A stretch of DNA of 64,000 nucleotides from Chromatiales bacterium. Its GTDB lineage: Bacteria; Pseudomonadota; Gammaproteobacteria; JAGRGH01. The stretch is from NCBI GenBank assembly GCA_020445605.1, contig JAGRGH010000049.1:248001-312000 (forward strand), given 5' to 3'. This document shows positions 3,772-36,071 of this stretch, in pieces. Every line of letters begins with the position of its first letter. The first letter of the stretch is position 1. The position numbers were made by a program, and so were the translations under genes. The notes below the pieces were generated by a model that was given only the letters and a program-made list of their open reading frames with translations, did not search any database and was not told the DNA's origin.

Positions 3772-4167
3772 TCAGGCGCGACCCATTGCGCTGAAGCTCT
3801 TCACAAACGGCTTCGCCATGCGCGGATCCTTGATCATCGCGCCGTAGTCGCCGGTCTTGAACTTGAGCTTGCGGGTCGTATAGGCCATGCCAAGGCCCAT
3901 CATGTTGGGCGGGCTGCCCATCCACTTGTTCCACTGGTCGGCGGACGCACGCAGGTCCCAGTTCACGGTTTCACCGCTATAGGCGCCGGCGGCGGTGACG
4001 TGGCCATTTTCGATGCTCAGAACGCCGCGCGGTGCATCCTCACCGTCGATGCCGTATGCGATCACGGAATTGAAGCCAATCTGGCCGAGTGCGCCCGCGA
4101 GCTCCGGGTCGGCATTCCAGGCATCCTTGAAACGGTCCATCCAATCGGCGCTGAACAAATCTGACAT
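3772..4167 (-). CDS. SCP2 sterol-binding domain protein
   Basis: Small cytosolic-type protein of 131 residues (MSDLFSADWMDRFKDAWN...). The pattern resembles bacterial single-domain SCP2 proteins: an amphipathic N-terminal helix, a central sheet (APRGVLSIENGHVTAAG), the WNKWMGSPPNMMGLGMAY loop and the closing LKFKTGDYGAMIKDPRMAKPFVKSF. The fold binds lipids or acyl chains; the ligand here is unknown. The start is supported by GGAGAG about 7 nt upstream of ATG. It is transcribed toward the efflux operon and divergently from the GTPase gene, with a 9-bp inverted repeat between them. No signal peptide is visible. Confidence 0.8.
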   Translation of the reverse strand: MSDLFSADWMDRFKDAWNADPELAGALGQIGFNSVIAYGIDGEDAPRGVLSIENGHVTAAGAYSGETVNWDLRASADQWNKWMGSPPNMMGLGMAYTTRKLKFKTGDYGAMIKDPRMAKPFVKSFSAMGRA

Positions 4168-4278
4168 TAGGTCTCTCCGAACAGTGATTTAGCGAGCGAA
4201 CAGGCCCGGGATCAACCCCGGCGCCCAACTTTGGGGCAGCCCAGTCGAGCCGCCGCCAGAATCCGAGAAACGAGTGAC

Positions 4279-4315
4279 AAAATACTCCGTAACTTAATGA
4301 ATCAATGAGTATTTT
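4279..4315. promoter_or_regulatory. 9-bp inverted repeat in divergent intergenic region
   Basis: AAAATACTC (4279-4287) and GAGTATTTT (4307-4315) form a perfect inverted repeat around a 19-nt AT-rich spacer, in an otherwise GC-rich 431-bp region (4168-4598) between the SCP2 gene and the divergent GTPase gene. Placement and symmetry suggest an operator for a dimeric regulator. No strong promoter pair could be assigned, and the rest of the region shows nothing else I can support. Confidence 0.4.
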
Positions 4316-4598
4316 TAGGCCAACAATCTTGGCCGCCGGAGCGGCGTTGACCTTGCCAAGCGATGTGGATCGGCGCGGAATTCTCCAGAAGGCGGCCAGT
4401 CATTGCAACCGTGCGTGGGCGTTGGAACGTACGTTAAACTGCGGGCACAGTCTCGCAATGTCCGCAAGCGTTTGAACACGCCCGCGACGTGTCCGGGACC
4501 GCAACAACGAACCGCAGCGAGCGCTCCACGGAGCGCTCCCCGCTCCCGCCCTCGGCCTCTGTGCCTGCGAGAGCCCATCTCCAAGGACCGCCACACCG

Positions 4599-6122
4599 AT
4601 GATCGACGATCGACTGAACCTGCTCGAATCGCACCTAAAAGAAGAAAACCCGGTACTGCTCGATGCCGTGCGCGGATTCCGGCAGCTCGACCGCATCGCA
4701 CATCGCATGGGCTTGCTGGCGGCAGATCAGTCCTACGCGACGCAGATTTCCTGGTGGCCATTGATCGCGATTCTCGGCACGTTCTCGGCCGGCAAGTCAT
4801 CGTTCATCAACTACTTTCTCGACACCAACCTGCAGCGCACGGGCAACCAGGCCGTCGACGACAAATTCACGGTGCTGTGTTTCTCGCGCGAGCCGACCCC
4901 GCATGCGCTGCCTGGCGTTGCGCTCGATGCCGACCCGCGCTTTCCGCTGTATCGAATCAGCGCGGAGATCGATCGCGTCGCCGCGGGTGAAGGCAAGCGC
5001 ATCGACTCGTACCTGCAGATGAAGACCTGCCCTTCGGAGGAACTGCGCGGGCGCATCCTCGTGGACTCGCCGGGATTTGATGCCGACGCACAGCGTACCG
5101 CGACGCTGCGGATCACTGACCACATCGTCGCGCTTGCCGATCTGGTGCTGGTGTTCTTCGATGCCCGGCATCCGGAACCCGGTGCAATGCATGACACCCT
5201 GCATCACCTGGTCGGCGCAACGCTGAAACGCCCGGATTCCAGCAAGTTTCTCTACATCCTCAATCAGATCGACACCGCCGCGCGCGAGGATAATCCGGAG
5301 GATGTTGTCGCGGCCTGGCAACGTGCACTCGCCGAGCAGGGACTCACCGCCGGCCGCTTCTATACGATCTACAACCCGAAGGTCGCACAGCCGATTGACG
5401 ATCCGGCGCTGCGTCGGCGTTTTGAAACGAAGCGTGATCTGGATCTTGGCGAGATCATCGGGCGCATGCGTCAGGTCACCATCGAGCGCGCCTACCGCAT
5501 CGTCGCTTCGCTGGAAAAGACCGCGCGCGACCTTGATGCCCATGCGGCACCGGCCATCGACCGGCTGATCGACCGCTGGCGCCGGCGCGTGCTGGTCGGT
5601 GACGCAATCGTCGCCGGACTGGTTGCCGTCGGCGTTGGTGTCGCAGCGTGGAAGTTCGGCTGGTGGACGAACGGCGCACTGGCGATCCCGGGCATCGACT
5701 GGCTTCGTGGTCATCCGGGTCGCATCTACGCCGCGCTGGCGGTTGCCGCGGCATTGGCAATCGCCGTGCACTTTGTCGTGCGCAGCGTCGCCGCCGCGGG
5801 TATTGCGCGGTCGCTCGCGCGGACCCGGCCGCCCGCGGATGTCCCCGGAAACCTGAAGTCCGCATTCATCCGCAACACCCGCCCGTGGCGCAGCATCTTC
5901 GCGCGCAAGCCCGCCGGCTGGGGGCGGTTCGCACGCAAGCGGGTTCTGGCGGTGCTCGCCGAGACCGACCGTTTCGTCCAGCGTCTGAACGACCGCTTCA
6001 CCGATCCGTCCGGTCGACGCGACGCGGCTGCCGGGCCAAACGCGGTCGAGGTTGAAGCCGTGGCCGCTGCGACCGCTGACGCTCCCGCACAACCGTCGCC
6101 GGCCCCCGCCTCGTCGAGCTGA
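4599..6122 (+). CDS. Dynamin-like GTPase with two C-terminal membrane segments
   Basis: Large GTPase of 507 residues. The G1 P-loop is GTFSAGKSS at residues 60-68, G3 is DSPGFD near 153-158, and G4 is NQID near 222-225. This GTFSAGKS form is typical of bacterial dynamin/EHD-like proteins. After the GTPase domain come two hydrophobic segments (about residues 325-345 and 374-395) and an arginine-rich cytosolic tail ending in an Ala/Pro-rich stretch. Such proteins bind or remodel membranes, but the role here is unknown. AAGGA precedes the ATG. It ends 15 nt before nadA and probably shares a transcript with it. Confidence 0.82.
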   Translation: MIDDRLNLLESHLKEENPVLLDAVRGFRQLDRIAHRMGLLAADQSYATQISWWPLIAILGTFSAGKSSFINYFLDTNLQRTGNQAVDDKFTVLCFSREPTPHALPGVALDADPRFPLYRISAEIDRVAAGEGKRIDSYLQMKTCPSEELRGRILVDSPGFDADAQRTATLRITDHIVALADLVLVFFDARHPEPGAMHDTLHHLVGATLKRPDSSKFLYILNQIDTAAREDNPEDVVAAWQRALAEQGLTAGRFYTIYNPKVAQPIDDPALRRRFETKRDLDLGEIIGRMRQVTIERAYRIVASLEKTARDLDAHAAPAIDRLIDRWRRRVLVGDAIVAGLVAVGVGVAAWKFGWWTNGALAIPGIDWLRGHPGRIYAALAVAAALAIAVHFVVRSVAAAGIARSLARTRPPADVPGNLKSAFIRNTRPWRSIFARKPAGWGRFARKRVLAVLAETDRFVQRLNDRFTDPSGRRDAAAGPNAVEVEAVAAATADAPAQPSPAPASSS

Positions 6123-8272: not shown

Positions 8273-9587
8273 TCGACTGGTCGCGTATCAGCGGTCGCAG
8301 CGCCGCCAGCAACCTTCCCAGAGCGCCGCGATTGCGTGCCACCACCGCGCGAGCGTTGTCGCCGAAACGACTGCGTTCCGCCGGGTTTTCAAACCAGCCA
8401 ATCACGATTGACGACAGCTCGTCGACGCCGCGGACCTCGCGCGCGCCCTCGCCGTCCAGCAGCACCCGGGCAATTCCCGCAAAGTTGAACATGTGTGGTC
8501 CAAACAGGACCGGGACACCCAGCGCGGCCGGTTCGAGCACGTTGTGGCCGCCGCCCCGCACCAGACTGCCGCCGACAAACGCCAGGTCCGCGAGCCCATA
8601 GAAAAGCGGAAGCTCGCCCATGGAGTCGAGCACGAAGACCTCGGTGGTGGCCGCGCACGGGCGTTGCTCGCTGCGCAGCACCGTTTCGAACCCATGCCGG
8701 CTGACTAGCTGCCCTACGCGGGCGAATCGTTCCGGGTGTCTGGGCACCAGAATCAGGCGGCAATCCGCGACGCGCGAACGGACCTTGCCGAAGGCCGCGA
8801 GAATCTGCTCGTCTTCGCCTTCGTGCGTGCTCGCGGCGATCCACACGTGGCCGTCCAGTCCCAGTGCCCTGCGCAGTGCCTGCGACTGCTCGCGACGACT
8901 GGCCGGGAGCGGTTGGTCGAACTTGATGTTGCCCGTGACCCGAACGATCCCCTCCGTGGCGCCAAGATCGCGGAACCGTTGCGCATCGGGCTCATCATGG
9001 GCCGCGATCAGGCTGAACGCGTTCAGGGCAGCACGGATGAGACGCGGAAAACGCGCATAACCGCGCGCCGAACGTTGCGAAAGACGCGCATTCGCCAAAG
9101 CGACCGGAACCGAACGACGCCGGCATTCCGCCAGCAGGTTGGGCCAGATCTCCGTTTCCACGATGATCACGCAGCGTGGCCGTACGCGCTCGAGAAACTT
9201 TCGCACCGCGAAGGGTGCGTCGTAAGGCGTGAAGCGATGCACAACGCCCTCGCCCATCGCCTCGACGACACGACGCCAGCCCGTCGGTGTCGTGGTTGTG
9301 ACGGTGACCGGCATCTCGGGATTCAGTTTGCGAAGTTCGCGCACGAGCGGCACCACCGCCTGCACTTCGCCGACCGAGACCGCGTGCAGCCAGACACCGC
9401 CCGATGGAACGGGTTCGATCAAGCCGAAGCGTTCGCGCCAGCGGTGCCAGTAATCCGGCGCGCGGATCCCGCGCACGAACAAGCGCAGCAGCGCGAAGGG
9501 CAGCATCAGGTAGACCACCACGGTGTACATGCGCCTCGGCCAATCGCCGCCAGTGGTCGTCGGCGGAGGCTCGGGTCGATCGACCAT
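8262..9587 (-). CDS. waaA: 3-deoxy-D-manno-octulosonic acid (Kdo) transferase
   Basis: Transfers Kdo from CMP-Kdo to lipid IVA at the inner membrane, the first step of the lipopolysaccharide inner core. The product has 441 residues with an N-terminal membrane anchor (MYTVVVYLMLPFALLRLFV). The GT30 motifs are LHAVSVGEVQA (with the catalytic-type Glu), VETEIWPNLL, and GGSLVRGGGHNVLEPAALGVPVLFGP (split here for length; CMP-Kdo binding). The ATG at 9587 overlaps the upstream murU stop as TGATG, which favours it over a longer frame beginning at 9656. A later ATG at the membrane anchor is also possible. Confidence 0.95.
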   Translation of the reverse strand: MVDRPEPPPTTTGGDWPRRMYTVVVYLMLPFALLRLFVRGIRAPDYWHRWRERFGLIEPVPSGGVWLHAVSVGEVQAVVPLVRELRKLNPEMPVTVTTTTPTGWRRVVEAMGEGVVHRFTPYDAPFAVRKFLERVRPRCVIIVETEIWPNLLAECRRRSVPVALANARLSQRSARGYARFPRLIRAALNAFSLIAAHDEPDAQRFRDLGATEGIVRVTGNIKFDQPLPASRREQSQALRRALGLDGHVWIAASTHEGEDEQILAAFGKVRSRVADCRLILVPRHPERFARVGQLVSRHGFETVLRSEQRPCAATTEVFVLDSMGELPLFYGLADLAFVGGSLVRGGGHNVLEPAALGVPVLFGPHMFNFAGIARVLLDGEGAREVRGVDELSSIVIGWFENPAERSRFGDNARAVVARNRGALGRLLAALRPLIRDQSISA

Positions 9588-15637: not shown

Positions 15638-16434
15638 ACGGGCCGGAGGCCGGCTGGCTGGAGCCGGTGGTTGCCATTGCCCTGGATGCGGGCGCGGCCA
15701 TCATGGAGGTCTACCGGGCGCCATTCGCGGTCGAGCACAAGGCGGACAACTCGCCGCTGACCGCCGCTGATCTGGCCGCCCACCGCCTGATCACCGGGGC
15801 CCTGGCCCGCCTGACCCCGACCATTCCGGTGTTGTCGGAGGAGTCCGGTTCCGCGGTCGGCGCGGGGCGCCTGGGTTGGCCGCGTTTCTGGCTCGTGGAC
15901 CCGCTCGACGGCACCCGCGAGTTCGTCAAGCGCAATGGCGAGTTCACGGTCAACATCGCGCTGATCGACGCCGGCGAGCCCGTACTCGGTGTGGTCTACG
16001 CGCCCGCGCTCGAGATCCTGTACTTCGCCGCCCGGGGTGCCGGTGCATTTCGAACGCGCAATGGCGTGCGCGAGCCGATCACCACACGCCGCCCCCCTGC
16101 CCGCCCGCCGCGCATCTGCGCGAGCCGTTCGCATCGAGGTGACTCGTTGGATGCCATGCTTTCCCGCATGGGTGACCATGATCTGGTTTCCATCGGCAGT
16201 TCGCTGAAGCTGTGCCTGGTGGCCGACGGGCAGGCAGACTGTTATCCACGCCTGGGGCCGACTTCGGAGTGGGACACGGCCGCGGCCCAGTGCGTGGTTG
16301 AATGTGCCGGCGGGCAAGTCGTGGATACGGCCGGACATCGTTTGCGCTATAACAAGCCCGAGACCCTGCTGAACCCCCACTTCCTGGTGGTCGGGGACCC
16401 TGCATATGACTGGATTGCGAATCTGTCCGATTAG
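15634..16434 (+). CDS. cysQ: 3'(2'),5'-bisphosphate nucleotidase
   Basis: Magnesium-dependent phosphatase that removes the 3'-phosphate from PAP (and PAPS), relieving product inhibition of sulfur assimilation. The product has 266 residues. The inositol-monophosphatase family motifs are PVLSEESG (metal-binding Glu pair), WLVDPLDGTREF (DPLDGT) and the C-terminal SEWDTAAAQCVVECAGG (WDxAA). The start is GTG, overlapping the upstream stop as GTGA; no ATG is available at a comparable position. The 3' end overlaps the next gene by 29 nt. It adds to the sulfur-linked genes in the window. Confidence 0.94.
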   Translation: MNGPEAGWLEPVVAIALDAGAAIMEVYRAPFAVEHKADNSPLTAADLAAHRLITGALARLTPTIPVLSEESGSAVGAGRLGWPRFWLVDPLDGTREFVKRNGEFTVNIALIDAGEPVLGVVYAPALEILYFAARGAGAFRTRNGVREPITTRRPPARPPRICASRSHRGDSLDAMLSRMGDHDLVSIGSSLKLCLVADGQADCYPRLGPTSEWDTAAAQCVVECAGGQVVDTAGHRLRYNKPETLLNPHFLVVGDPAYDWIANLSD

Positions 16435-17488
16435 TGCGCGCATGACCGCACTGGTGCTCGGGTTGGTACTTGGCACTGCCCTGGCCGGTGGCGGTCCGAA
16501 CGAGCGGATCAACGAAGTCGTCTTCGCGGACGACCCTGCATTCCGCAACCTCAAGCACCCGCCGTGGTTCAAGAAGAGCTTCTACGACCTGCGCGAGGAC
16601 CTCGAAGACGCTCGCACGCACGGCAAGTTCGGGCTGATGCTCTATTTCGGCCAGGAACACTGCGCCTATTGCGAGGCGTTTCTGGAGCATGACCTCGGCA
16701 AGCTGGACATCGAAAGTCTCGTCCGCCGTCAGTTCGACGTCATCGGTTTTGATATCTACGGTGCGCGCGAAGTGACCCTGCCGGATGGCCAGAAATACAC
16801 GGAACAGGAGCTTTCGGTCTTCTTCGAGGCCCAGTTCACCCCGACCCTGCTGTTCATCGGCCCGGAAGGCAACGAGGTGTTTCGTCTGCGCGGCTACTAT
16901 CCGCCCTACCAGTTCCGCGCCGCGATCAACTACGTAACCGACGGGTTCTACCGGTCGGAGAGCTTCCGCGACTTTCTCGCCCGGGCCGATCCGACCATGA
17001 GTTTCGAGGAGGGCGGCCTGAACTATTTCGAACTCGCCGCACCGCCCCCGCTGGCGCTGGATCGAAGCCGCATGCCGGCTCAGCGTCCGCTAGCCGTGTT
17101 CTTCGAACAGGGCGACTGCCACGCCTGCGACGCGCTGCACACCGACCCCCTCAATGACGGGGCGGTTCTGGCGCGGCTGCGCGACTTTGACGTCGTGCAG
17201 CTCGACATGTGGTCGCAGAGTCCTGTGATCACGCCCGCCGGCGAGCGAACGACCGCGCGCGACTGGGCGCGGAAGCTGGGCCTGTTCTTTACCCCGACCA
17301 TCGTGCTCTACGACGAACGCGGAAAGGAGATCATCCGCGTGGATTCCGTCGTTCAGCAGTATCGCTTGGCGGGCGTGCTGGAATTCGTGCAGACACGCGC
17401 CTACCTGGAGCAGCCCAATTTCCAGCGCTGGCGTTATGAAAAGCGCCTGGAAAGCTACCGCGAGCGGCATGGAACGGAGTTTCTTTGA
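16406..17488 (+). CDS. Exported double thioredoxin-fold protein (SoxW-like)
   Basis: A 360-residue protein with an N-terminal signal-type segment (ARMTALVLGLVLGTALAGGG) and two thioredoxin-like domains. Domain 1 has HCAYCE (C86, C89) and a cis-Pro in FTPTLLF. Domain 2 has DCHACD (C238, C241) and FTPTIVL. Two intact CxxC sites in one periplasmic protein suggest a disulfide reductase or relay; SoxW-type proteins of sulfur oxidisers are the nearest relatives I can name. The ATG lies inside cysQ (29-nt overlap); an alternative ATG at 16442 just after the cysQ stop would also give a signal peptide. The stop codon is the first element of a tandem repeat. Confidence 0.8.
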   Translation: MTGLRICPISARMTALVLGLVLGTALAGGGPNERINEVVFADDPAFRNLKHPPWFKKSFYDLREDLEDARTHGKFGLMLYFGQEHCAYCEAFLEHDLGKLDIESLVRRQFDVIGFDIYGAREVTLPDGQKYTEQELSVFFEAQFTPTLLFIGPEGNEVFRLRGYYPPYQFRAAINYVTDGFYRSESFRDFLARADPTMSFEEGGLNYFELAAPPPLALDRSRMPAQRPLAVFFEQGDCHACDALHTDPLNDGAVLARLRDFDVVQLDMWSQSPVITPAGERTTARDWARKLGLFFTPTIVLYDERGKEIIRVDSVVQQYRLAGVLEFVQTRAYLEQPNFQRWRYEKRLESYRERHGTEFL

Positions 17489-31860: not shown

Positions 31861-33189
31861 CTATTCGTCGGTCGGGAAAGACCCGCTCCGCGCATCCAGA
31901 TCGCGCAGCCGGGCAAGTTTTTCAGCGATCTTGATCTCCAGTCCGCGCGGGACCGGCACATAGAAACGCCGCCCCGCCAGTTCGGGCGGTAGATAGGTCT
32001 CGCCGGCCGCGTAGGCCTCCGGCTCGTCATGGGCATACCGATAGTCGCGCCCCGCCCCAACGGACTTCATGAGCGCAGTGGGCGCGTTGCGCAGATGCAT
32101 GGGAACCGCAAGCGAACCCTGTTCCTGGACGGCGGAACGCGCTGCGTTGAAGGCTGCGTATACCGCATTGCTCTTGGCCGCACAGGCCAGATACACCGCG
32201 GCCTGCGCCAACGAAAGTTCGCCCTCCGGGCTGCCCAGCCGTTCCTGCGCCTCCCAGGCATCCAGCGTGATACGCAATGCGCGCGGATCGGCGTTGCCGA
32301 TGTCCTCGCTGGCGATACGCACGAGGCGCCGGGCCAGATACAGCGGGTCGGTGCCGCCGTCGAGCATGCGCGCAAGCCAGTACAGCGCCGCATCCGGCGA
32401 CGAGCCTCGAATCGATTTGTGCAGGGCGGAGATCTGGTCATAGAACACGTCGCCGCCGCGGTCGAACCGTCGCCCGTCGCCACCGGCGAGGAGTTCCGCG
32501 GCGCGCCCGCGCCTGACCGGATCACGCCCCTCCCCGATCCGCAATGACAGCTGCTCGAGGAGATTCAGCGCGCGCCGCGCGTCGCCGTCCGCCATGTCCG
32601 CGATCAGCGCGAGTGTGTCGTCCTCAAATCGTCCGGAGAGTCCTTCCAGCGCCGCGTCTTCTCGCAGTGCGCGCTGGAGAATCGCGACGATTTCCGTGGG
32701 CTCGAGCGACTTCAGCACATAGGTACGGGCCCGTGAGAGCAACGCGTTGTTCAGCGCAAAGGACGGGTTTTCGGTGGTCGCGCCGATGAAGGTCAGCGTG
32801 CCGTCCTCGACATGCGGCAGAAACGCATCCTGCTGCGCCTTGTTGAACCGGTGTACCTCGTCGACAAACAGCACGGTCGCCCCTGCGTGCGCCTTGGCCT
32901 CCGCGACGGCCTTGCGAATATCGGCGACGCCCGAGAGCACGGCGGACAGGCTGATCCATTGCGCGCCGCTGGCGTCGGCCAGCATGCGTGCTAGCGTGGT
33001 CTTGCCAGTGCCAGGCGGGCCCCAGAGGATCATCGAATGCAGGCGGCCGGTTCGAAGCGCCTGGGCAAGTGGGCCGGTCGGACCGAGCAGATGTGCCTGA
33101 CCGCTCAGCGCATCGATCGTAGCCGGCCGCACACGGTCGGCCAGCGGCCGTGTATCGGCTCCGGCCGGTGCGTCATCGCCGGAAGACAT
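31861..33189 (-). CDS. rarA: Replication-associated recombination protein A (RarA/MgsA)
   Basis: An AAA+ clamp-loader-like ATPase acting at stalled replication forks. The 442-residue product has Walker A GPPGTGKTT (about residue 57-65), Walker B LFVDEVHRFNKAQQDAFLP, sensor 1 GATTENPSF and the C-terminal tetramerisation domain (DPLYLARRLVRIASEDIGNADPRA, split). The ATG at 33189 lies inside a remnant of the lolA 3' end, showing that lolA once overlapped rarA by about 17 nt; a 2.2-kb insertion now separates them. Confidence 0.96.
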   Translation of the reverse strand: MSSGDDAPAGADTRPLADRVRPATIDALSGQAHLLGPTGPLAQALRTGRLHSMILWGPPGTGKTTLARMLADASGAQWISLSAVLSGVADIRKAVAEAKAHAGATVLFVDEVHRFNKAQQDAFLPHVEDGTLTFIGATTENPSFALNNALLSRARTYVLKSLEPTEIVAILQRALREDAALEGLSGRFEDDTLALIADMADGDARRALNLLEQLSLRIGEGRDPVRRGRAAELLAGGDGRRFDRGGDVFYDQISALHKSIRGSSPDAALYWLARMLDGGTDPLYLARRLVRIASEDIGNADPRALRITLDAWEAQERLGSPEGELSLAQAAVYLACAAKSNAVYAAFNAARSAVQEQGSLAVPMHLRNAPTALMKSVGAGRDYRYAHDEPEAYAAGETYLPPELAGRRFYVPVPRGLEIKIAEKLARLRDLDARSGSFPTDE

Positions 33190-33228
33190 CGAAGGCGGTC
33201 TGTGGTTCGAGTTTCAATGTGGCGGGAA
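33173..33228 (-). pseudogene. lolA: Remnant of the 3' end of lolA
   Basis: Reading the minus strand, this stretch encodes PATLKLEPQTAFDVFRR then TGA. The last residues of the intact LolA (35448-36071) are EFKFEPQNAFDVFQG. At the DNA level 33182-33217 and 35457-35492 match at 31 of 36 positions. The TGA lies inside rarA (33173-33175). This is the expected scar of a segment inserted at, or duplicated with, the lolA 3' end. Confidence 0.75.
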
Positions 33229-33276
33229 AAGCAGCACAAGCATGCATTTCGGATGATTCTACCCGGGACCGGCCCA

Positions 33277-33486
33277 TCACACCGGTACTCCGGCCCCCAC
33301 CCGTCGTCGTCGCCAGCGCGCGGTGTACCCTGTTTGGTGCATACGCCCATGCTGGCGGACCAGATTGACCAGCGGCCGCGGCAGCCGTGCCGTCAGCCGC
33401 CCAGTCAGATCCAGCGCGTCGAGAACGACGTGCCCGGTGCCGCTACGATACGACCGTTGAAACCTCTTGAACGTCTGATCAGGAAA
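33277..33486 (-). pseudogene. Degenerate IS91-type transposase C-terminal fragment
   Basis: The minus-strand frame reads SYRSGTGHVVLDALDLTGR then LTARLPRPLVNLVRQHGRM. This closely follows the C-terminal pattern of IS91/ISCR-type (Y2) transposases, which from memory reads YRDGTTHVV-x-PLDF-x-RLAALVPRP-x-NL-x-R-x-HGV. A TGA at 33487-33489 interrupts the frame, and the frame upstream of it (to about 33560) has no recognisable catalytic region. It fills most of the 372-bp space between rarA and the SoxB-like gene. Comparison is by recall, not a search. Confidence 0.65.
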
Positions 33487-33561
33487 TCATTGCCCGGGAA
33501 GCTTCGCTTCCATCAACTGCCCGTTCTGATCGACTCGCCCGCGATACCGAATAGGCTGATT

Positions 33562-35217
33562 TCAGCCTGTGGTGACTTCGCTCTTGCCGGCCTCCTGCCA
33601 GATTGTTGGCAGGTGCAGATGATCGCCGAGGATGTCGCCCTGCGGCGTGGCAAGCCTGTGATCGAGCGCCGGCGCCACGGTGCCGCGATCCTCAATGTAG
33701 GCGATGATTTCATGCGGACCGACCAAGTGGGTTTTCTTGCCGTCGACCGCTAACGGGCTGTTTCTGAGAAAGAGATTAAACTCGGCCAGGGAGTAAAGCC
33801 GGTCAGCAGCCAGCGGTTGCCCGTCGACGGTGATTTTCTGGATTCTGTTCGGGTGTTTCTTGGTTAGATCGACCACCAGCTCGACGCCGGAAAAACGCCA
33901 CATATTGCTGCCGACCTTTTGCAGAATGTCGTCGGTGACGACGTTATCCACGGCCGCTTCCAGCATCGCTTGTATATCGCGGCCGTAGAATTTCATGGTG
34001 TGCACGGGCGCCTCGGTGGGCACCAGATTGAAAACGTCTTCCACCGTGATATCGCCGGGCAGAATGCTCGCGCCGTAGCGCCCCGGCTCCGCGACGCTGA
34101 TGTTCTGACCGGTGCGCTCGCGCAGCGCGTCGGTGACAAGATTGTCGCCAGTGCTTTGCCACGTGCCTTGGCGGTAAATCACCGTTTCGGCTTTACCGAT
34201 GACCCGCTCCAGCTCTTCCTTGTATGGTGCGCGGAATTTCTCGATCATTGCCGCGATTTCTCGATCAGGTTCGATTTGGTTGGCCCGAATCGGAAACAGG
34301 GTCTGCTCGAATTCAACGACGCGCTTGTTGGCGATGTGCAGATCCAGCTGGCCCAGCAGCTTGCCGTGCGAACCGCTTTGCACAATGATGACACCGCGCT
34401 GGCTTTTGGCGTTGTGCACGAGGTCGGGTCGGTATAGCGCGTCGTGCGTATGCGCGCCGATCACCACATCAATGCCGTTGACCATTTCGGCGAACTTCGC
34501 ATCCACCTTCCAGCCCATGTGCGAGAGCAGGATCACGACGTCAACGTCCTGCTTGTTCCGCAGGTTGTCCACGTCGGCCTGCACCTCGTCCAGTCGCAGG
34601 CCGAAGCTCCACTGCGGATGATTGGTGACTTTCGACATCCAGTGATACGTCATGCCGATAATGCCGACCTTTATGCCGTTGAGTTCGCGCACAATGTACG
34701 GTTTCAGATTGGGCAGATCGGCGCGCTCACCCCACTCGGCGTCGTAGAAATTGGCTGCGACAATCGGAAACTCTGCGGCTTCGAACAAGGCCTCCACCGT
34801 ACCCTGGTCGTAAAATAAGTCCACATTGCCGGGCACCATCGCGTCATAGCCCATCGCGTTCATGACTTCCACCACCGGCTTGCCAGCCAAGCGCACCGGC
34901 ACGGCTGTGCCATGCCAGGTGTCGCCACTGTCCACCAACAAGGTACGATCTGGATGGCGCTGCCGCTGCTGATCAATGGCAGCCGCCATATGGGCCATGC
35001 CGCCCGAGCGGCCTTCCTCCCGCGCGCGATCGACAAACTGATAATCACCTTCCTCGCGATGAAAAAGCGGGCTCAAATAGCCGTGCGTGTCATTTGTCCA
35101 CAGAATGCGCAGTGTTGGCTCTGCTGCGGGTTGCAAGCCCCTGGCCGTAATCCCCAGCGCCAGGGATAGAAAAACCAGTCCCAGAATGTTCAGTGGATCA
35201 AGTGGTTTTAACGACAC
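33562..35217 (-). CDS. SoxB-like/5'-nucleotidase-family metallohydrolase
   Basis: An exported protein of about 551 residues with an N-terminal hydrophobic signal (LNILGLVFLSLALGITARG). The metallophosphoesterase core has LWTNDTHGYLSP, LVDSGDTWHG, LLSHMGWKVDAKF and IGAHTHDALYRPD; the C-terminal 5'-nucleotidase domain follows. WSFGLRLDEVQADVDNLR and GAHTHDAL are close to thiosulfohydrolase SoxB. However, the GNHE/GHWE position reads GNVDLFYD, so the usual His is missing. The start is GTG at 35217 with AAGGGG five bases upstream; GTG at 35223 overlaps that site. No other sox genes adjoin it. It lies in an insertion between lolA and rarA beside a transposase remnant. Confidence 0.8.
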   Translation of the reverse strand: MSLKPLDPLNILGLVFLSLALGITARGLQPAAEPTLRILWTNDTHGYLSPLFHREEGDYQFVDRAREEGRSGGMAHMAAAIDQQRQRHPDRTLLVDSGDTWHGTAVPVRLAGKPVVEVMNAMGYDAMVPGNVDLFYDQGTVEALFEAAEFPIVAANFYDAEWGERADLPNLKPYIVRELNGIKVGIIGMTYHWMSKVTNHPQWSFGLRLDEVQADVDNLRNKQDVDVVILLSHMGWKVDAKFAEMVNGIDVVIGAHTHDALYRPDLVHNAKSQRGVIIVQSGSHGKLLGQLDLHIANKRVVEFEQTLFPIRANQIEPDREIAAMIEKFRAPYKEELERVIGKAETVIYRQGTWQSTGDNLVTDALRERTGQNISVAEPGRYGASILPGDITVEDVFNLVPTEAPVHTMKFYGRDIQAMLEAAVDNVVTDDILQKVGSNMWRFSGVELVVDLTKKHPNRIQKITVDGQPLAADRLYSLAEFNLFLRNSPLAVDGKKTHLVGPHEIIAYIEDRGTVAPALDHRLATPQGDILGDHLHLPTIWQEAGKSEVTTG

Positions 35218-35447
35218 CGGCACCCCTTGAATAAAAAGGACCTATTGCCCAGTGTAGACGGAATGGGCCAGTTCGCCGTGCGCGCGGTGTATCTTCCTGA
35301 TGCCTTTGATAATGAGCGATCGCGCCATCTGTATGGAAAGCGAAACCCGCGCAAGTCGGGCGTGTTCACCCGGGAATTCGCCATCAGACCAATATCCAGC
35401 ACTCCGGAGCAGACACCACCCGGCCGCCGCCCGAGCGCTCCGTTGCA

Positions 35448-36071
35448 TCAGCCCTGGAAGACGTCGAAGGCGTTCTGTGGTTCGAACTTGAATTCCTTTG
35501 GATCAAGCTCGAGGTTGCGCACGACGTCGCGAAACTCGATGCGCGTCGTGCGTCCAAGTCGATCGTCGATCTCGATCACGCGCAGGTCCTTTAGTCCGAA
35601 ACCGGCCCGCAGGCGCGTGAAGTCGCCACTCTGGTCGTGCGGCGTCATCTCGGCCCACTGATAATCGCGCTCCAGGCCGAGATCGCGAACATCGAAGTCG
35701 TCGGTTATGCGCCCGCCACCGGCGAGCAGAACCGCCGGCGTGTTTCGCAACGCCAGCGACTGCAACGCGACGCTGACCTGATCGAGTTCGACATCGTGCA
35801 CCCAGATGCTGAGCCCGTCGGCGACGATGATCTGCTCGGTGGGTTCGATGTAGGTCCAGCGAAACCGACCCGGGCGGCTGAGCAGCAGGAAACCGCTCCC
35901 GCGTTGCAACTCGCGGTGATGCTCGTCGTAAACCGTCTGCACAAAACTCGCGCGCAGGGTCTTGACGTCGGACAGGAATTTTTCCAGCCGCTCGCTCGCG
36001 GTATCGCCCCGCGCGAACCCGGCGGCGACCAGCAGCGACGCGAACAGAACAAACCGGGTCAGTCCAATCAA
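35448..36071 (-). CDS. lolA: Outer-membrane lipoprotein carrier protein LolA
   Basis: Periplasmic chaperone that ferries lipoproteins from LolCDE to LolB. The 207 residues include a signal peptide (MIGLTRFVLFASLLVAAGFARG). The LolA fold follows: LEKFLSDVKTLRASFVQTVYDE, RGSGFLLLSRPGRFRWTYIEP with the conserved Arg, IVADGLSIWVHDVELDQVSV and LRVIEIDDRLGRTTRIEF. It starts immediately after ftsK (1 nt between stop and start regions). Its 3' end is repeated at 33173-33228. Confidence 0.96.
   Translation of the reverse strand: MIGLTRFVLFASLLVAAGFARGDTASERLEKFLSDVKTLRASFVQTVYDEHHRELQRGSGFLLLSRPGRFRWTYIEPTEQIIVADGLSIWVHDVELDQVSVALQSLALRNTPAVLLAGGGRITDDFDVRDLGLERDYQWAEMTPHDQSGDFTRLRAGFGLKDLRVIEIDDRLGRTTRIEFRDVVRNLELDPKEFKFEPQNAFDVFQG

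Follow-up and report, generated by a model that had tools for sequence, protein, structure and literature searches.

Results and discussion

A 2.2-kb block bounded by an imperfect direct repeat of 54 nt separates lolA from rarA in the window, the whole 64-kb stretch of DNA analysed here. It contains a SoxB-like gene and, beside it on the minus strand (~33269-33452), about 184 bp of a diverged and frameshifted ISCR-type (IS91-related) transposase gene. This relic is probably a passenger in the block, brought along by recombination or duplication at the lolA-rarA junction. The features concerned are the following.

31861-33189, minus strand: rarA/mgsA (AAA+ ATPase; PF12002, E=3.1e-65)
33165-33218, minus strand: direct repeat copy 1, an orphan lolA 3' end overlapping the rarA start, a native-looking junction (sequence comparison)
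33219-35439, no strand assigned: inserted block of 2221 bp with the SoxB-like gene and the transposase relic (bounded by the direct repeat)
33269-33452, minus strand: ISCR-type (IS91-related) transposase gene fragment, ~aa 352-416 of 497, frameshifted and truncated at both ends (tblastn, DNA alignment, profile and shuffle controls)
33278-33343, minus strand: second frame of the relic (YAPNRVHRALAT...), after the frameshift, aligned with aa 389-410 (tblastn)
33346-33450, minus strand: first frame of the relic (YRSGTGHVV...RQHG), 57% identical to aa 353-387 of the ISVsa3 transposase (tblastn)
33562-35223, minus strand: SoxB-like metallophosphatase/5'-nucleotidase-family gene, 553 aa (Pfam PF02872 and PF00149)
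35440-35493, minus strand: direct repeat copy 2, formed by the present lolA at its 3' end and sharing 44/54 positions with copy 1 (sequence comparison)
35448-36071, minus strand: lolA (PF03548, E=5.3e-37)

Identity of the transposase relic

The reference for the homology searches was the 497-residue transposase of ISVsa3 (ISCR2), taken from a Phaeobacter plasmid. Its best tblastn match in the whole window is the relic, where the stretch SYRSGTGHVVLDALDLTGR...RLPRPLVNLVRQHGRM is identical at 20 of 35 residues (33450-33346) and a linked match in a second frame at 11 of 22 (33343-33278), with an Expect(2) of 9e-9 for both. An earlier note on this DNA, made from the letters alone and without tools, had quoted two peptides from a broken minus-strand frame, had named them a relic of an IS91/ISCR-type transposase and had proposed such a translated search; both peptides are found in one minus-strand frame, and a fossil of some 60 residues had thus been correctly recognised.

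The DNA itself is also alignable with the ISVsa3 gene (64.6% identity over 164 bp, 33452-33290, E=1.2e-14 with permissive scoring), and a longer local alignment, extending to ~33269, has a score that none of 300 first-order shuffles reached. A profile was built from 13 transposases, namely ISVsa3 plus 12 chosen from 27 open frames (many of them partial) that had been recovered from 29 loci. It gives 36.9 bits at the relic (37.4 for the best tile holding it) versus 4.5 for the best tile elsewhere in the window, and in a second control 38.0 bits versus 8.4 for the best of 500 six-frame shuffles, scores that are biased towards the relic, ISVsa3 and the other 12 members having themselves been retrieved with its peptide. 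Free of this bias is the sole NCBIfam match, to ISCR_clade_Ia (NF052416, ISCR clade Ia transposase), in which the relic aligns to profile positions 361-400 of 509; it is a weak one (E=5e-4), its 18.7 bits lying far under the cut-off of 925.

In plasmids, the 49-residue relic peptide matches 4,558 of 72,556 records at E<=1, all below 60% identity, the best at 52.2% over 46 aa (E=6e-8). Pfam returned nothing on the relic up to E=10, and blastn with the 343-bp region around it found no plasmid match at E<=0.01. These two null results and the low NCBIfam score are what a mere chance resemblance to a transposase would also yield, yet they fit a short, old fragment, and the protein, DNA and profile tests with their shuffled controls are all concordant; the probability of a chance resemblance is thus negligible. 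Judged from its sequence, the relic is truly homologous to the transposases of the ISCR/IS91 group, and its naming at the family level was correct.

What is left is an internal piece of the gene, about 184 bp of 1.5 kb, and not the C-terminal pattern that had been read into it, for the last ~81 codons are missing. Likewise, the homologous stretch does not coincide with the interval 33277-33560 first proposed. In ISVsa3 the HUH (HFH) metal-binding motif begins at aa 188, while RYISRP, which I take to be the catalytic tyrosine region, is found at aa 325; both lie outside the preserved aa 352-416 and are therefore missing too. The tyrosine region of ISCR transposases differs from that of IS91. 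The in-frame stop first reported lies upstream of the homologous stretch and is no part of it. Within that stretch the reading frame is broken by a frameshift near 33345, which together with the truncation at both ends leaves no open reading frame. Since the HUH motif, the tyrosine region and the C-terminus are all absent, the relic is dead DNA without a present function, an ordinary fossil of the middle-to-late portion of an ISCR-type transposase gene.

The block between lolA and rarA

Followed in the minus-strand direction, the order is ftsK, lolA, the SoxB-like gene, the relic, rarA and crcB, of which ftsK and crcB are presumptive names, given from their translations and general knowledge. 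As the earlier note had it, the relic adjoins an inserted SoxB-like gene, both lying within the block.

To place this arrangement in context, 110 rarA loci were examined, this one included (the best 80 of 592, plus 30 from the genomes of relatives), many of them short. lolA is found in 95, and in 79 of these 95 it lies within 150 bp of rarA (by extrapolated ends), the two genes being further apart in the other 16. No SoxB-like or ISCR match appeared at E<=1e-3 in the 109 other loci, many of them short. Given the usual adjacency of lolA and rarA and the lack of such matches, the block looks like an addition in this lineage. Among the RarA matches listed (in one search the best 80 of 592) identity does not exceed 68%, and none of them represents a close relative whose site is empty. 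The set of relatives comprised 56 genomes, the present one included, of which the others are 'same class' and none belongs to the same genus or family.

The block has two non-coding parts, of 343 and 216 bp. Rfam at gathering thresholds gave no match over 33100-35600, and the non-coding flanks of the insert have none in plasmids at E<=0.01. Searched against its own genome, the rarA-side flank gives, besides itself, 12 short matches (best E 0.022), and the lolA-side flank, besides itself and the direct repeat, ten (best E 0.0096). Against 369 genomes of the class the lolA-side flank gives two short matches (E 1.6e-4 and 9.1e-4), and the 3.0-kb loci around these contain no significant ISCR match (best E 0.67).

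The SoxB-like gene

The neighbouring gene resembles the thiosulfohydrolase SoxB (TIGR04486), scoring 363.9 bits over residues 62-483, but it stays below the equivalog cut-off of 550 bits. The plasmid genes annotated as soxB that appear among the 12 rows listed share 34.7-36.4% identity with it, as opposed to 63-65% within its own subgroup, to which its nearest relatives, in the genomes G032, G042 and G044, belong. That subgroup is patchily distributed: it occurs in 4 of 369 class genomes at E<=1e-120, this one included, each from a different family. Among 72,556 plasmid records, 106 have a match to the gene at E<=1e-20, all below 60% identity, and a search of viral contigs for close relatives returned none. 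Its G+C content is 58.6% (third positions 72.6%), versus 62-68% (77-86%) in five neighbouring genes.

The DNA around these three nearest relatives (stretches of 19.0, 19.2 and 4.9 kb) holds no significant ISCR match, the single match having an E of 0.81. G042 and G044 share a two-domain thioredoxin-like gene directly upstream of the SoxB-like one; remnants of this partner were sought in the flanks of the insert, where the best match has an E of 0.22. A two-domain thioredoxin-like protein is encoded elsewhere in the window (16406-17488, plus strand), 33-34% identical to the G044 and G042 neighbours (E 2e-55 and 3e-59), 16 kb from the SoxB-like gene and near inositol-phosphatase-like and ATP-sulfurylase genes. 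On a 4.9-kb contig (L197, G032:C82), an integrase-core (rve) gene at 3825-4661 adjoins the SoxB-like gene.

A direct repeat of the lolA-rarA junction

The block is bounded by two copies of the junction formed by the end of lolA and the start of rarA, 44 of 54 positions (81%) being identical at a spacing of 2275; the next-best place for this repeat in the window reaches 28/54. When the lolA-side flank is searched against its own genome, copy 1 is the top match after the flank itself (E=7e-8). Translated in the lolA frame, the copies give LKLEPQTAFDVFRR* and FKFEPQNAFDVFQG*, and copy 1 also contains the rarA start, ATGTCTTCCGG. The lolA frame is complete on one side of the block, an orphan lolA end lying on the other.

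Relatives for a comparison of the junction were chosen for an estimated overlap of 10-16 nt between the two genes; two of the ten (L106 and L117) were dropped for a wrong position. In three of the eight usable ones (L104, L148 and L152) the overlap between the rarA ATG and the lolA end has the phase of copy 1, and so copy 1 looks like the native junction, copy 2 belonging to the present lolA. The rankings of relatives by LolA and by RarA, compared in what is a weak test, agree with a rho of 0.38, above 61 of 95 others, with no odd ranking, a weak hint that the present lolA is native as well.

The likeliest course of events is that the block with its SoxB-like gene entered between lolA and rarA, which normally adjoin or overlap, and that its entry left two copies of their junction. 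Such an entry would be an illegitimate recombination of the single-crossover or duplication type at the junction, rather than the landing of a rolling-circle transposon, and the relic would have travelled as a passenger. I infer that block and repeat stem from one event, and that the relic came with the SoxB-like gene. This recombination or duplication is preferred because of the presence of the repeat, the lack of convincing ISCR ends (see below) and the lack of significant ISCR matches near the gene in its three nearest relatives. Against the proposed duplication at entry stands the divergence of the copies at 10 of 54 sites: perhaps they never were alike, or perhaps the lolA end now in place is of foreign origin.

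A repeat at the 3' end of a gene, with a complete frame on one side and an orphan end on the other, also calls to mind islands that target tRNA genes or gene ends and rebuild them, and the block might accordingly be a decayed small integrative element with the lolA 3' end as its attachment site. This is quite improbable: an intact integrase gene would not fit into the non-coding DNA of the block, the identity of the repeat is only 81%, and the 109 other loci, many short and searched for these two features only, lack SoxB-like and ISCR matches. A more specific version, to which very little probability is given, has an unrecognised small integrative element targeting the overlapping junction and rebuilding the lolA 3' end; the SoxB-like gene would be its cargo and the ISCR relic a secondary passenger. 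Should the junction turn out to be a reused site of integration, one more gene-end target, beside a conserved housekeeping pair, would be on record.

For the arrival of the block the direct repeat is more informative than the relic. More generally, a transposase scrap beside a gene is weak evidence of the route by which the gene arrived, and a flanking repeat is a better clue.

Element ends and the proposed rolling-circle delivery

The earlier note offered one-ended rolling-circle transposition as the means by which the SoxB-like gene arrived, the ISCR-like element having later decayed. The orientation fits, for the transposase fragment has the gene on its 5' (terIS) side, the one that would be carried along in one-ended transposition. 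The ends of ISCRs are oriIS and terIS (PMC13393415), these elements are described as able to move adjacent DNA (PMC5714925, PMC13393415), neighbouring DNA being mobilised when termination is missed (PMC5714925), and IS91 is stated in a review to generate no direct repeats (PMC5714925).

The present block departs from this last rule, being bounded by the 54-nt repeat, and both the oriIS-side end and the C-terminal codons of the transposase are absent. A search for an oriIS or terIS end, also proposed at the outset, used the flanks of one element, taking 600 bp on the downstream and 444 bp on the upstream side of the ISVsa3 gene; ends at the present site may be too diverged to be seen in this way. 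Compared with the edges of the insert, these flanks give chance-level matches, the best (E 0.074) agreeing with the expected position in neither end nor strand: two stretches of the DNA upstream of ISVsa3, one of 39 bp and one of 23 bp, match 33220-33256 and 33453-33475 respectively, each with that E value and on the plus strand under permissive scoring, and this flank would be expected at the lolA side, where neither match lies. Moreover, ISCR matches are not significant around the SoxB-like gene in the three relatives, and the non-coding flanks of the insert, without a plasmid match as noted, give no better than E 0.0096 in the own genome, the repeat aside. Delivery by this mechanism is therefore decidedly unlikely, whereas an ancient ISCR move may have taken place in a donor.

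Under permissive scoring two further similarities to ISVsa3 emerged, one of 27 bp of its transposase gene with 33714-33689 (E 0.005), the other between the SoxB-like ORF (~34433-34546) and DNA located downstream of the ISVsa3 gene in L029, at a distance of over 300 bp (65.8% over 117 bp, E 7e-7), the latter possibly a chance match in coding DNA. As candidate element ends these extra matches were set aside: none shows an end, and some run against or beside the preferred reading.

ISCR scraps elsewhere

ISCR fragments are common in this class: at E<=1e-4, 26 of 369 class genomes, the present one included, match the relic peptide, and PF04986 has matches in 10 of the 56 relatives, again counting this genome, whose match is to a second scrap on contig C40 and not to the relic. 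Both the scatter of such fragments and the existence of this second scrap would agree with the relic having landed, or stayed, in intergenic DNA independently of the SoxB-like gene. On the other hand, the ISVsa3 transposase finds only the relic and the C40 scrap in the 3.36 Mb of the genome, so that a chance fall within a block of 2.2 kb is improbable; this argument is post hoc, and independent landing is regarded as unlikely. With the relic peptide itself as query, the genome gives, besides the relic, two weak matches (E 0.24 and 0.73).

The second scrap (L198, G000:C40:34000-52000, ~8670-8837) covers aa 173-228 of the transposase, with the HFH motif and one TAG stop. Short 'ctgtcccca' motifs adjoin it.
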